Of a stretch of DNA of 35,296 bases, positions 10,982 to 31,912 are shown one piece after another. The stretch is from positions 594-35,889 of the IMG/VR virus record IMGVR_UViG_3300030107_001766; one strand, given 5' to 3'. Position 1 is the first letter of the stretch. Every line of letters begins with the position of its first letter. A program made the translations under genes and the position numbers. The notes below the pieces were generated by a model. It worked only from the letters and a program-made list of their open reading frames with translations. It was not told where the DNA came from and ran no database searches. This DNA comes from a virus.

Positions 10982-11001
10982 CTACTACAGTAGACAAAAT
11001 A

Positions 11002-11024
11002 AAAGGGGGAATTTATCCCCCTTT
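11002..11024 (-). terminator. Rho-independent terminator after the 129-aa gene
   Basis: AAAGGGGGA (11002-11010) and TCCCCCTTT (11016-11024) form a 9-bp stem with a 5-base loop. On the minus strand the stem is followed by TATTTTG. It begins 4 bases after the stop codon of the leftward 129-aa gene, making that gene a separate transcript. Confidence 0.75.
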
Positions 11025-11027
11025 ATA

Positions 11028-11417
11028 TTATGTAGTAATTCTTAGCTTTTGGATTCTGCGTTTTTCCTTCACATTTTCTGCGATTGAAAGTCCTTTATTC
11101 CATTTATAGTATGGAACTCCTACTTCCTTTACGAACGCTTTAACTTCAATAGTTCTTAGCTTTACAAGAAGTTCTTTATTTTCTTGTAAATCACCAAGTT
11201 TATCTTTGATATCATCAACTTTAATGTCGGCTTTATTAACGCCCATTGAAGCTGCTGCATCAGGAGATTCTAGAAAAGCTATATGAGATTCCAAATCAGC
11301 TTGTGAATTTTCGTTCAAATCAATAGCTTTGTCGATAACTCCAATTATCCCTTCAAGTAAATATTTGGTAGTAAAATCGTTAAGCTTTGAAATTGCTGTC
11401 GAATTAACAAGAGTCAT
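11028..11417 (-). CDS. 129-aa hypothetical protein, isolated first leftward gene
   Basis: I do not recognise this protein. It has 129 residues, mostly helical: an N-terminal part (LVNSTAISKLNDFTTKYLL, EGIIGVIDKAIDLNEN), a central acidic helical part (KADIKVDDIKDKLGDLQENKELLVKLRT) and a basic end (NVKEKRRIQKLRITT). It is the gene nearest the noncoding hub, has a dedicated leader hairpin that covers its GGAGA ribosome site, and ends in its own terminator. This isolated, structured transcript suggests an abundant or tightly controlled early product, perhaps a host-takeover or regulatory protein; that is inference from layout. Confidence 0.75.
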   Translation of the reverse strand: MTLVNSTAISKLNDFTTKYLLEGIIGVIDKAIDLNENSQADLESHIAFLESPDAAASMGVNKADIKVDDIKDKLGDLQENKELLVKLRTIEVKAFVKEVGVPYYKWNKGLSIAENVKEKRRIQKLRITT

Positions 11418-11422
11418 ATTTT

Positions 11423-11514
11423 TCTCCGTTTTGGTTAAGAGGCGGAACCCATTTCTCGCCTATCAGCCCTCAGGCAGGCGCAGAAAAGGAACGTTCGCCT
11501 CTCCAAAACGGAGA
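11423..11514 (-). promoter_or_regulatory. Two-stem leader hairpin burying the ribosome site of the 129-aa gene
   Basis: TCTCCGTTTTGG (11423-11434) is perfectly complementary to CCAAAACGGAGA (11503-11514). Inside it, GAGGCG-AAC (11439-11448, one extra G) pairs with GTTCGCCTC (11493-11501). A further GC-rich internal set (TTTCT/AGAAA, GCCT/AGGC, GCC/GGC) fills the top. On the minus strand the ribosome site GGAGA is the final part of the outer arm, 5 bases before ATG 11417. It resembles a translation switch, riboswitch or protein-binding leader; I cannot match it to a known class. Confidence 0.65.
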
Positions 11515-11521
11515 CAAATAT

Positions 11522-11660
11522 GGTGAATTGTTAATTTGACCATAGCTATTTCTGCTTAACGATTTTACCCCTCCAAATATTTATGCTATCACCTTTTTTC
11601 AAGGTGATATGAAGGTATAATTGAGAGATATCCAAAGGTATTTATTTTAACAAATTCACC
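11522..11660 (+). ncRNA. 5' part of the structured hub: competing stems and a hairpin
   Basis: GGTGAATT-GTTAA (11522-11534) can pair over distance with TTAACAAATTCACC (11647-11660), 13 bp with one bulge. It can instead take part in a local TATGGT/ACCATA hairpin. Between the arms a perfect 8-bp hairpin ATCACCTT/AAGGTGAT (11588-11608) is followed by a TATAAT at 11616-11621 with no convincing -35 box. A local ACAAAT/ATTTGT hairpin competes with the 3' arm. No gene is seen. Confidence 0.4.
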
Positions 11661-11674
11661 TGATTTGTAATTGA

Positions 11675-11702
11675 GTATTAGGTTTTCTTTATCTCCTGAT
11701 AC
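11675..11702 (+). ncRNA. Hairpin with a G-U pair in the structured hub
   Basis: GTATTAGG (11675-11682) pairs with CCTGATAC (11695-11702). One position is U-G on the plus strand and would be an A-C mismatch on the minus strand. This mildly favours the plus strand as the RNA strand. Confidence 0.4.
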
Positions 11703-11737
11703 AGCATTGTGTAAATGAGGTGTTAATCAAACGAATA

Positions 11738-11743
11738 TATAAA
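11738..11743 (+). promoter_or_regulatory. Possible -10 box before the nested-stem domain
   Basis: TATAAA lies at 11738-11743. A transcript starting about 7 bases later, near 11750, would begin just before the first long arm at 11757. The candidate -35 (ATGAGG, 17 bases upstream) is poor, so this is weak support. Confidence 0.25.
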
Positions 11744-11756
11744 GTTCTGATATTAA

Positions 11757-12004
11757 AGATAAACGCCAATGATTTACTTGAAAATCAATAATGATATGTA
11801 ATGCTTAGAACTATTTAATTAATAGTGTTCGTTAAGGAAGTCATCTAGGTGTTCCTACTATCAATGGGATATCTAGGTCTTTCTCGTAGACAATGTGTTT
11901 AGGTAAAACCATAATATAAATGCTTAGTTTTACTTCATAATATAAAGGCATAAATTCACTTTAAATTGGTCTACTGATAGATGACTTCCTATTGGCGTTT
12001 ATCT
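11757..12004 (+). ncRNA. Nested long-range stems, core domain of the candidate large structured RNA
   Basis: AGATAAACGCCAAT (11757-11770) is the exact complement of ATTGGCGTTTATCT (11991-12004), 14 bp. Inside it, AGGAAGTCATCTA (11835-11847) is the exact complement of TAGATGACTTCCT (11978-11990), 13 bp. The two 3' arms are contiguous, so the stems could stack. The 5' arms are separated by 64 bases holding hairpins GATTT/AAATC (11771-11786) and GAAC-TATT/AATA-GTTC (11808-11830). The inner loop holds GTAAAAC/GTTTTAC (11903-11933). This reads as a folded branched RNA; a DNA-level origin or recombination site is the alternative. Confidence 0.6.
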
Positions 12005-12008
12005 ATCG

Positions 12009-12148
12009 ACTAGGCTTATTAGTTTTCGGCATACGCCTCAACTAATCACACCCCCAATAAGCCATGTTTCGCCATTCGGCTACACATTAGAGTTACGGCA
12101 TACGCCTTCACCTAAAACATTCCGCCCTTCGGCTACACTAGGCTTATT
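12009..12148 (+). repeat. Tandemly repeated hairpin module with alternative partners
   Basis: Direct repeats: ACTAGGCTTATT at 12009-12020 and 12137-12148; CGGCATACGCCT at 12027-12038 and 12096-12107; TTCGGCTACAC at 12075-12085 and 12128-12138. AATAAGCC (12056-12063) is complementary to GGCTTATT in either outer repeat (12013-12020 or 12141-12148), so two exclusive folds are possible. Small GC hairpins alternate: GGC-ATAC-GCC, GCC-ATTC-GGC, GGC-ATAC-GCC, GCC-CTTC-GGC. It is noncoding in both strands as far as I can see. Confidence 0.6.
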
Positions 12149-12156
12149 TCAAGATG

Positions 12157-12209
12157 TTGTATGTCGTCAGCAATTTCTTGTACTAAATCTGGTGTGCGTT
12201 GACATACAA
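12157..12209 (+). ncRNA. Closing stem just upstream of the small terminase gene
   Basis: TTGTATGTC (12157-12165) is the exact complement of GACATACAA (12201-12209), 9 bp around a 35-base loop. The 3' arm contains a perfect TTGACA, so the same bases may serve as a promoter -35 box. No T-run follows, so it is not a terminator on the plus strand. Confidence 0.45.
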
Positions 12210-12226
12210 AAATAAAGGTTTATTAG
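12199..12226 (+). promoter_or_regulatory. Possible promoter of the late packaging/morphogenesis block
   Basis: TTGACA (12199-12204) is followed after 16 bases by TATTAG (12221-12226), or after 19 by TAGTAT. A start near 12233 would leave only a few bases before ATG 12239, giving an almost leaderless message. The -35 is perfect but the -10 is mediocre. Confidence 0.4.
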
Positions 12227-12238
12227 TATAAGAGACTT

Positions 12239-12619
12239 ATGCCTAATACTCCCACAATTAAGAACTTAACGCATAGACAACGCACACTTGTTGATACTAT
12301 TGTATCACAAGATATTAGCGTAACAAAAGCTGCTGAAATTGCTGGATATGCTAAGGGTGAGAGTGGTAGAGTAGTAGCAAGTAAAACATTACGATTACCA
12401 CATGTACAAGAGTATATGATGCAACAAGTAGGGCAACACCTCACCCTTTCAAGCATATCTTCTGTGAAACGACTACGACATCTTGTTGACCATGCTCGTT
12501 CAGAGTATGTTCAGCTCGAAGCTAGTAAGGATATCTTAGATAGAGTAGGGTTCAAGCAACCTGATAAGGTTAGACATACTCTGGATGGTGATATCAGCGT
12601 CAAGATAGATTTATCTTGA
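12239..12619 (+). CDS. terS: Terminase small subunit
   Basis: The 126-residue protein has an N-terminal helix-turn-helix typical of small terminases: 'LTHRQRTLVDTIVSQDISVTKAAEIAGYAKGESGRVVASKTLRLPHVQEYM'. This resembles the Terminase_2 family 'xxAAxxAGYxxxxxxxxxAxxxLxxPxVxxxM'. The C-terminal half ('SVKRLRHLVDHARSEYVQLEASKDILDRVGF') is the usual helical oligomerisation region. It would recognise the packaging site on concatemeric DNA and deliver it to the large subunit encoded at 13623. It is the first gene of the rightward block. The ribosome site is weak (AGAGA), which fits a near-leaderless start. Confidence 0.78.
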   Translation: MPNTPTIKNLTHRQRTLVDTIVSQDISVTKAAEIAGYAKGESGRVVASKTLRLPHVQEYMMQQVGQHLTLSSISSVKRLRHLVDHARSEYVQLEASKDILDRVGFKQPDKVRHTLDGDISVKIDLS

Positions 12620-12836
12620 GTCGCTGATACCTACTACATGGTCAAGGGGGTGTGATATAGTATATAGAGGTAGGGGGGTTTAAAAAACACATGTCCTTAT
12701 AGCTAGTGGTAGTTCACAAGCAATTATAGTCAAAAAGGTTCGGTATGAGAAAAGTGCGTAGACAAATAGAACAAAATATATTTTACTGCTTGACAGGTTC
12801 AGATATGAGCTTATGTGGTTTTTGATTGAACGATAA
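12620..12836 (+). other. Noncoding gap after terS; possible packaging site region
   Basis: This 217-base gap holds a G-run (GGTAGGGGGG around 12672), TACCT/AGGTA arms and a TTGACA (12790-12795) with a poor -10 (TATGTG, 16 bases later) that might serve the small genes at 12837. A 26-codon frame (12745-12825) is the only open frame worth naming. Packaging sites often lie beside the small terminase gene, but no diagnostic site is visible. Confidence 0.35.
12745..12825 (+). CDS. Doubtful 26-aa frame
   Basis: It begins 'MRKVRRQIEQNIFYC' after a weak AAGG element and encodes 26 residues. It fits between terS and the next small gene, but without overlap or a strong ribosome site it may be chance. 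Confidence 0.22.
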   Translation: MRKVRRQIEQNIFYCLTGSDMSLCGF

Positions 12837-29300: not shown

Positions 29301-30200
29301 TTTACTGGAGTATTAGGACAACATAGAATGGTTAAACATAGTCTTGAATGGAGTAAAGGAACTATAAAACCAAATGATATGAAATGGTTATTAGAAGTAG
29401 GAATAGACCAAAGAAAAGCATTAAAAATTGTAAAAGAATTAAATGCTGGTAATATACAAAGAGGAGATAATATTTTTTTAATGAATACTATGTCTTGGGG
29501 TGACCAAGAACTAGCTCATTATGTTCGTTCACATTTATCAGATGAAATAGTTAGAACTATTGTAACTCCTAGAGCTGCTGATAGACCAAATCTTATGGAT
29601 GGAGTATTAAAAATAGCTACAGGAAGAACAGCATCAGGACAAAAAAAATATTTTAGAGCTGATTCTTCTGGTTTTAGTATGCCATTTCAATTCTTATCTT
29701 ATGGAATGTCAGCTACTTCTAAGATTATGTTAGCTGGATTACAAAGACGAGATGCTGCTACTATGTCAGGACTTGTAGCTATGATGACATTAGGTTATTT
29801 CTCAGCAAGATGGAGAGACCCTTATTGGGATAAGAAAACTTTTACTGAACAAACAATAAGAGTAATAGAATTAACAGGTATGTTAGGTGTAGTTAATGAT
29901 ATGAATATAATGTTAGAAACATTATCAGGTGGACAATTAGGAGCAAGACCAGCTTTTGGAGCAAGACCTTTATTTGGTGAAGTTAATATGGGAGATAGAT
30001 TGGGTGAACCTTTCGGACCGGGAATTAATATGGTAACTGAAGCAATATGGGCTATGACTTCAGATGATGCAACAAGAAATGATAGAGCTGCGATTGTGCG
30101 TAGACTAATTCCTTGGAACAATTTATGGGTATGGAAAGACTGGTTTAGACAAGCAAGTGAATCTGCATATGGAACTTTAATAGAAAAGGAAGATAATTAG
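26391..30200 (+). CDS. Largest internal virion protein, gp16-like
   Basis: The 1269-residue protein is the longest gene and takes the gp16 position. It has a hydrophobic Gly-rich region at about 145-215 ('[30 protein letters not shown]', '[20 protein letters not shown]'), a long helical body and basic segments near the end ('[23 protein letters not shown]'). The lytic transglycosylase domain found at the N-terminus of T7 gp16 is not evident. It would be ejected to span the inner membrane. Its stop overlaps the next GTG start. Confidence 0.72.
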
Positions 30201-31912
30201 TGGCACATATTACAATATCAGATAATGCTCCTAGAGTACAGATAACAGGAACAACAAGTGTTGGTCCACACGCATATAATTTTGAGATATTTGCTGATGC
30301 AGATTTAAAAGTATATATTAATGATACTCTTAAAACTTTAACTACTCATTATACTGTAGCTGGAGCTGGTGAATCAGGTGGTGGTAGTATTACCTTTACT
30401 GGTGGTAATGCTCCTTCTTCTTCATCAGATGTTATAACTATTCAAAGAGATATAGCAGTATCAAGAACAACAGATTTTGCTACTTCTGGTAGTTTTCAAA
30501 TAGATTCTTTAAATACAGAATTTGATAAACTAACAGCAAAAGTAGCTCAACAAGAATTTAATATTAGGAGAGCTCCTCTACTTAAAGCAACTACAGTAGA
30601 TGCTAACCTAGACGAAACATTTCCTGACCCTGTAGCACACAAAGGAATTAAATGGAACAGTTCAGCTAATGCCTTAGAAGCAGTACATTTAGATTTTAGT
30701 GCTGCTGTTTCAACTGTATCTGTAGGTAATCCAGCAACTGCAGCTTTAAATACAACTACTGGAGTTTTTACTTTTGGTATTCCAACTGGAGCAACAGGAG
30801 CAACAGGACCAACAGGACCTAATGGTCCAACTGGTCCAAGTGGACCGACAGGACCTAGTGGACCGACAGGTTCAACAGGTTCAACTGGACCTGCAGGACC
30901 GACAGGACCTAGTGGACCAACTGGACCTAGTGGACCAACAGGACCAACTGGACCTAGTGGACCAGCGGGTTCTGGTTCTATGACAAACTTTGTATTAGAG
31001 GATGATTCTGGTGATGAAGTTTCAATTGAAGATGGAAAAGAAATTAAGTTTATTGGCTCTGGTATTACAACAAACTGGACTGATACTTCTCATGGTACTG
31101 ATGGTGACCCATACGATTTAACTTTTACTGTTGATGCAGCACAAACTGGAATTACTTCCATGTATGCTACTGATTTAATTTTAGGTGAAGATGCAGAAAC
31201 TGCTATTGATTTTGGAACTGCAAATGAAATTGATTTTAAAGCTGATAATGCTGCAAGGTTAACATTAACTGCTTCTTCTTTATATCCAGTAACTACTAAT
31301 CAAATTGATTTAGGAACTGCTTCTTATGAATTTAAAGATGCTTTCTTTGATGGCACAGTAACAGCAGATGCTTTTGCTGGACCATTAACTGGTAATGTAA
31401 CAGGTAATGTTTCTGGTACAGCAGCTACTGTTACTGGAGCAGCACAATCTAATATTACTTCTGTTGGAACTTTAACTACTTTATCTGTAGATAATATTAC
31501 TGTTAATGGAAATGACATTTCTTCTACAGATACTAATGGAAATATTACTTTAACTGCTAATGGCACAGGTAAAATACAATTTAATGATTTAGCTTATATT
31601 CCTCAACAAGCAATTACTTCATCTTCAAATGCTGTTGCTTGGGATGTTCAAGCAAAACCAAATGCTTATCATCAAACTTCAGAAAATACGACTTTTTCTG
31701 CACCAACAAATGGTGTTGAAGGAGCTTTTATTTGTTTAGAAATTAATTATAATGGTTCACATACTATTGGGTGGAACACAGTTTTTGAATTTGCTGCTTC
31801 AACTGAGCCAACTGAAACAGCAACAGATGGCAAAACTGATATTCATGTATTTAGATACAATGGAGCTATCTGGCAAGAAGTAGGTAGAACAATGAATTTA
31901 AGTGAGAGTTAA
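30200..31912 (+). CDS. Tail fibre protein, T7 gp17-like N-terminus with collagen-like stalk
   Basis: The GTG start overlaps the previous TAG. The 570-residue protein has three parts. Residues 1-150 ('[38 protein letters not shown]', '[27 protein letters not shown]') match the T7 gp17 N-terminal attachment domain. Residues about 197-258 are Gly-X-Y collagen-like repeats. The rest is beta-rich, with repeating '[11 protein letters not shown]' and '[16 protein letters not shown]' typical of marine phage fibres. It would attach to the tail and carry receptor-binding modules encoded next. Confidence 0.85.
30788..30976 (+). repeat. Collagen-like Gly-X-Y repeat tract
   Basis: Repeats of GGA/GGT-ACA/CCA-... 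encode about 20 Gly-X-Y triplets, mainly GPT, GPS and GAT, in the stalk of the tail fibre. Units such as '[16 protein letters not shown]' recur nearly identically at DNA level, so length changes by slippage or recombination are likely between relatives. Confidence 0.85.

Follow-up and report, generated by a model that had tools for sequence, protein, structure and literature searches.

A long imperfect rod predicted to fold from the strand antisense to a small gene beside terS in Hodr-like marine phages

Background

Cis-encoded antisense RNAs, RNA-OUT of IS10 among them, are stable imperfect stem-loops transcribed opposite a translation start, and in RNAs of the IS10 RNA-OUT type the mismatches of the stem guard against double-strand RNases and help pairing. 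Hepatitis-delta-like RNA is a rod in which one arm covers an open reading frame (ORF). Obelisks are rods of ~1 kb, also with one arm covering an ORF, and their protein Oblin-1 (~200 aa) is a helical globule with a beta-sheet clasp (PMC11922315). Phages and prophages encode the large structured RNAs GOLLD and ROOL, which are of unknown function, have complex folds with pseudoknots, form cages and often, though not universally, lie near tRNAs (PMC12286853).

Results and discussion

The gap before terS is part of a longer quasi-palindrome

The source record (IMG/VR record IMGVR_UViG_3300030107_001766) is that of a tailed phage of ~35 kb (35,889 bases in total), and the window, i.e. the whole stretch of DNA analysed here, comprises 35,296 nucleotides of it. 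By TerL, the closest cultured relative was Pelagibacter phage EXVC031P Hodr (66% over 99% of TerL). A terminal repeat of the record start was not found at the record ends, and the window contained no tRNA. According to the original prediction, positions 11515-12238, in the divergent hub before the terminase small subunit gene (terS), hold no plausible gene and are a candidate for a large structured phage RNA. Neither strand had an ORF of more than 36 aa wholly inside this stretch; the long exact complementary pairs of 14 bp and 13 bp were confirmed (Table 1), four ~26-nt hairpin repeats lay in a row at 12024-12138, and the stretch alone folded better than dinucleotide shuffles (n = 20) on both strands (z -3.6 for the + strand and z -6.0 for the - strand).

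The limits of the element, however, were found to lie elsewhere. Comparison of the hub DNA with its own record revealed a second match, inverted and at 71%, and 11415-11976 was an inverted, ~70% identical copy of 10988-11522, which holds the adjoining leftward gene. Therefore, the real element is 10988-11976, beginning 527 bases further left than had been proposed. Aligned with itself, it showed 70% identity to its own reverse complement, with many gaps of 1-3 nt (E 7e-132). RNA folding of the + strand gave a single unbranched rod of 396 pairs with a minimum free energy (MFE) of -411.1 kcal/mol (z -30.4), and that of the - strand gave -375.9 kcal/mol (z -20.5); 96% of the predicted pairs of the window's rod spanned the centre, and a branched or pseudoknotted complex fold was not predicted. 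Of the large structured RNA first proposed, the conserved structure with strong covariation (see below) thus stood, whereas the self-contained, ornate molecule of ~720 nt did not: most of the stretch is one arm of an unbranched rod of ~1 kb whose opposite arm is a protein-coding gene, and its last ~260 bases hold three separate features, namely a third-strand element, an insertion of repeats and the region of the terS promoter.

Perfect duplex runs in the rods had a mean of 3.9 bp, with one of more than 16 bp. In the apical stem the relatives had different letters with the pairing retained, and the terminator-like hairpin near the rod base scored on both strands, its T run being better leftward. 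GOLLD and ROOL had been named without a match being recognised, and indeed no Rfam family fitted, none reaching the gathering score in the window and nine related loci. The weak matches were irrelevant; that to MIR7127 (E 6e-4), with 32 bits where the cut-off is 100, reflected only the apical hairpin.

Table 1. Features of the rod and its surroundings in the window
Feature	Position	Strand	Remark
Whole rod, 989-nt quasi-palindrome	10988..11976	+ (predicted folded strand; terS direction)	Centre ~11482
Left (5') arm, antisense to the leftward gene	10988..11482	+	
Terminator-like hairpin	11002..11024	-	Directly past the gene's stop codon, just within the rod base
129-aa gene within the left arm	11028..11417	-	Predicted helical-hairpin protein
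Apical stem	11415..11522	+	Arms 11415-11434/11503-11522 are 95% complementary
Right (3') arm, non-coding	11483..11976	+	Bulk of the originally noted stretch
Right-arm segment	11757..11770	+	Alternative 14-bp pairing with 11991-12004; kept in L005
Right-arm segment	11835..11847	+	Alternative 13-bp pairing with 11978-11990; compensated in L001: AGAAAGTCATCTA/TAGATGACTTTCT
Third-strand element, 27 nt	11978..12004	+	Two right-arm segments can pair with it instead of with the left arm; window's own clade only
Insertion of four ~26-nt hairpin repeats	12009..12148		Flanked by two 12-nt direct repeats ACTAGGCTTATT; not present in L001, L005 and L006
Sigma-70-like promoter of the terS operon	12199..12226	+	TTGACA, 16 nt, TATTAG; downstream of the rod
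terS (terminase small subunit)	12239..12619	+	

Downstream of the rod, the 14-bp pairing with the third-strand element was equalled in none of 60 shuffles of the downstream stretch. The tandem repeats of the insertion are near-palindromic, with stem letters swapping from GGC/GCC to GCC/GGC among copies; on the - strand the insertion forms one regular hairpin (-48 kcal/mol), and a single related copy was seen in L082. The position of the terS promoter was conserved in relatives. It was also noticed that in ~50 relatives a nearly invariant element precedes terS, consisting of TTGACA, a spacer of 16-18 nt, a weak -10 and then a pair of G runs (5-8 G each) separated by a few nt. It resembles a promoter whose start is G-rich, or else part of a packaging signal; in the window both G runs instead follow terS (about 12645-12680).

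The leftward gene

Among pairs of relatives, dN/dS of the gene in the left arm was 0.12-0.45 for the more divergent pairs and 0.66-0.96 for two close pairs, and on these values the gene was considered a real protein gene under purifying selection. AlphaFold2 modelled the product of the window's gene as a helical hairpin (pLDDT 85.5) and gave a similar all-helical model for another protein family of the same locus (136 aa), and the 129-aa protein had no match above noise in Pfam, PHROGs, PDB and BFVD. The locus is hypervariable: between genomes with nearly identical terS the proteins were 31-36% identical, with the rod arm matching.

Rods in related phages

A locus was scored as having a rod when its hub contained a quasi-palindrome that was 240 nt or longer and had E <1e-12. 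Rods were present, in the same place before terS, in 58 of 111 related loci of a first set (those in which 600 nt or more preceded terS) and in 47 of 73 loci of a second, the two sets overlapping and including near-duplicates, so that the second added 20 rods independent of the first. About half of the relatives examined had no long rod, or short palindromes only. All 25 loci retrieved by searching with two of the genes (those of L067 and L145) had a rod. The rods of relatives were 240-1,370 nt long and 60-75% complementary, and lay 13-465 nt from terS or overlapped it. The cultured phage Hodr carries a 694-nt rod at the same position, overlapping the leftward gene EXVC032PBaldr_022 and lacking annotation as a feature. 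An assembly artefact was excluded, since the rod is present in many metagenomes and in a complete cultured genome.

Long rods (985-1,370 nt) spanned the entire leftward gene, and those of the window's and the L067 clades ended slightly beyond its stop codon and the terminator-like hairpin. Short rods (240-600 nt) covered chiefly the leader and the first codons of the gene. In nearly all rods the start codon of the leftward gene was inside the left arm, L083 being an exception. At L011, L115 and L164 (Hodr) the right arm extends into the coding start of terS, and therefore two genes on opposite strands make up both arms of one rod.

Outside the hub, loci L001-L163 had no palindrome that reached 150 nt at E <1e-8, and no long rod was found in the more distant phages with a related terL (BcepC6B, Mwe-JY08, VA-RY-3, Pmp11 and MEP301). 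A 98-nt quasi-palindrome (80%, E 9e-19) is located at the left genome end of Burkholderia phage BcepC6B, beside the terminase genes (L191, 1-98), and smaller ones were seen in the window at 30805-30955 (E 3e-8) and 31356-31436 (E 2e-7) within a tail-fibre-like gene (30200-31912). Some contigs of the phage group, L195-L199, are filed under bacterial or archaeal MAGs (e.g. ‘Euryarchaeota’ and ‘Rhodobiaceae’) and are probably mis-binned phage contigs.

The two arms change together

The right arm matched the left arm of its own genome even where the arms differed between genomes. In alignments of L038 with L051, each locus's own two arms scored 208 and 202, left against left 188, right against right 50, and the cross arms 24 and 25. 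A plain old inverted duplication, now decaying, was rejected as the sole cause, since the two arms of one genome fit each other far better than arms taken from different genomes do. In an alignment of eight rods of one clade, the 468 pairs of a structure derived from one aligned sequence, which favours that structure somewhat, were formed in 88.3% of cells, and sliding the partners by 1-3 columns lowered the paired cells to 38-44%. Changes on both sides were found in 147 of the 468 pairs versus 64 in shuffles, and double-change cells numbered 251 versus 83; with the first reference, 66% of double changes were Watson-Crick, compared with 17-31% in shifted controls. Covariation and stability beyond shuffles, whose absence had been set beforehand as the refuting result, were both present.

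The strand that folds

For a comparison of the strands, the arm alignments scored only Watson-Crick identity and gave wobble pairs no advantage, and mismatches having at least three pairs on each side were counted. On the + strand of the first set these were G.T 85, A.C 15, T.T 62, A.A 23, G.G 27 and C.C 3, whereas in loop context the ratio of G.T to A.C was just 1.7 to 1 (Fisher p 7e-6 versus helix context). G.T was favoured in 24 of 26 informative clades and the reverse was seen in 2. The 20 new independent rods repeated the result, with G.T 110 and A.C 12, the preference being seen in 17 loci versus 0. A strand-wide mutational bias explains this poorly, because arm composition predicts a ratio of only 1.25 to 1 and the right arm is A-rich, not T-rich, on the + strand. 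The L006-type clade showed no strand preference. By MFE the + strand was more stable in 40 of 44 rods; rightward coding flanks had a similar though weaker bias of the same sign, and we therefore took the MFE difference as weaker evidence and relied on the flanked mismatch types.

The excess of flanked wobble-type mismatches indicates that one strand, antisense to the gene, is under selection to fold, and these comparisons show the + strand to be the predicted folding strand. They also show that the locus encodes a + strand single-stranded nucleic acid predicted to fold into one long imperfect rod of 240-1,370 nt. RNA is the natural reading of the folded + strand; the same pattern would be expected of a hairpin made of single-stranded DNA.

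Possible functions of the rod

The overlap with the start of the gene, the near-complete but interrupted pairing and the right arm always following the gene suggest a cis-antisense RNA that would be inert until displaced by the mRNA. This is our best guess at the function, which we hold tentatively and at somewhat less than even chances. Rightward transcription starting close to the left base, or further out, would yield an RNA that acts, as a cis-encoded antisense RNA, against the translation start region of the gene or, in the long form, against the entire gene. The non-coding arm keeps re-evolving to fit the antisense-of-gene arm. In this model the mismatches would keep the rod stable, the perfect duplexes being shorter than those cut by RNase III, and would prevent annealing until it is wanted. 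The left arm is a perfect match for the mRNA but only a ~70% match for the right arm, so that the mRNA could replace the right arm through branch migration and would then be shut off. In the window's clade, the third strand past the rod could draw off part of the right arm, aiding the opening.

Several observations count against the antisense model. No sigma-70-like promoter signal (the type searched for) was found on the + strand at the rod's left base, or at the rod ends, while a clear one lies at terS, downstream of the rod; the long rod is missing in about half of the relatives, and the L006-type clade lacks the strand preference. In addition, the YUNR motif of antisense recognition loops, which is common but not universal, occurred in 11 of 64 apical loops and was not enriched; since these loops are tiny and YUNR is present in just these 11, no fast-pairing loop is evident.

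The main rival is that the rod is itself the functional RNA and not an antisense switch, for example a decoy or inhibitor of a host RNase or of a dsRNA-binding defence, or else an RNA with a structural or packaging role next to the terminase genes, with the gene being the cheapest source of an arm or its product binding the rod. This would account for the near-maximal pairing with tiny loops, for an overall shape that is kept while length varies, and for gene and rod varying jointly as a cassette at a single place beside terS. However, the sequence points to no partner, and the left arm regularly holds the gene's translation start, a feature that a pure decoy could do without. The variable distance between rod and terS also speaks against it and makes terS regulation or a fixed packaging geometry unlikely. 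We regard a decoy or structural RNA as possible but unlikely.

The + strand may instead act as a single-stranded DNA hairpin for replication, recombination or packaging near terS. The preference for wobble-type mismatches fits single-stranded DNA as well as RNA, the site lies at a divergent hub, and the genome encodes a RecE-like exonuclease, an SSB and a RusA-like resolvase. A double-stranded cruciform, on the other hand, would give no strand preference, and a strong one was observed; moreover, no phage origin is known to consist of a very long, imperfect hairpin in which one arm is coding. A role as DNA is thus considered rather improbable.

We give only a slight chance to the functional molecule being the leftward (-) RNA. 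In this reading the mRNA of the 129-aa gene would have a long 5' leader, which would fold back over the coding region and so govern the translation or stability of the message. The ends of the long rods just beyond the stop codon and terminator-like hairpin agree with such an mRNA, and the - strand folds well too (z -20), but the strand test favours the + strand, which was also the more stable in 40 of 44 rods, even if the rightward coding flanks are biased similarly though more weakly, and the outermost conserved pairs extend beyond the T run of the terminator.

An absence of function has a comparably slight chance. Here an inverted duplication, otherwise decaying, would be kept alike by quasi-palindrome correction, since template switching in replication can make palindrome arms coevolve, and the 27-nt element next to the rod resembles a templated copy of two right-arm segments. 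Correction, however, leaves long perfect tracts, whereas runs longer than ~12 bp were rarer in the rods than the geometric expectation; it gives no strand preference, whereas G.T exceeded A.C about ninefold in the second set; and many lineages have the rod at this one place, with none elsewhere. Finally, a captured viroid-like or obelisk-like RNA replicon is very improbable, for although a ~1 kb rod with a single arm coding for a small protein fits the obelisk description (PMC11922315), phage DNA encodes the rod at a fixed locus, a cultured phage genome included, no ribozyme family reached the Rfam threshold, and the protein is a ~130-aa helical hairpin and not the globule with beta clasp of Oblin-1.

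Novelty and comparison with known systems

No published description of such a rod was found among open-licence papers, to which the search was limited. We rate the rod as new as a structural class, obelisks, GOLLD and ROOL being set apart partly by their published descriptions. It probably represents, in our judgement, a new class of phage RNA, namely a DNA-encoded giant unbranched rod with an antisense-of-gene arm and a non-coding arm that coevolves with each version of the gene, gene and rod together being a two-part, hypervariable cassette that Hodr-like marine phages carry next to their packaging genes. If so, abundant ocean phages carry an undescribed structured RNA, several times the usual size of an antisense RNA, made of a gene and its own mirror, and RNA pairing constrains a protein gene along its whole length. 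It would also be a clear case of two arms coevolving across very different protein variants, and a hint of a gene-and-RNA cassette in phage-phage or phage-host conflict. With a cultured carrier, Hodr on SAR11, the rod is directly testable.

Like GOLLD and ROOL, the molecule encoded here is a large structured phage RNA, in this case as predicted from sequence; it differs from them in being an unbranched rod with a protein-coding antisense arm, in its location before terS and in having no Rfam match. With obelisks and hepatitis delta it shares a predicted rod of ~1 kb with an ORF along one arm, but it differs in residing in tailed-phage DNA, in having no ribozyme match and an unrelated protein fold, and in that the favoured strand is antisense to the ORF. 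Unlike an obelisk, which is a circular RNA without a DNA copy, the rod resides in phage DNA, that of the cultured genome included. Compared with IS10 RNA-OUT, the rod is several times longer, has no recognisable recognition loop and has a second arm that coevolves rapidly, whereas the two have in common an imperfect stem opposite a translation start and, except in the L006-type clade, a folded and selected strand that is predicted to be the antisense strand.
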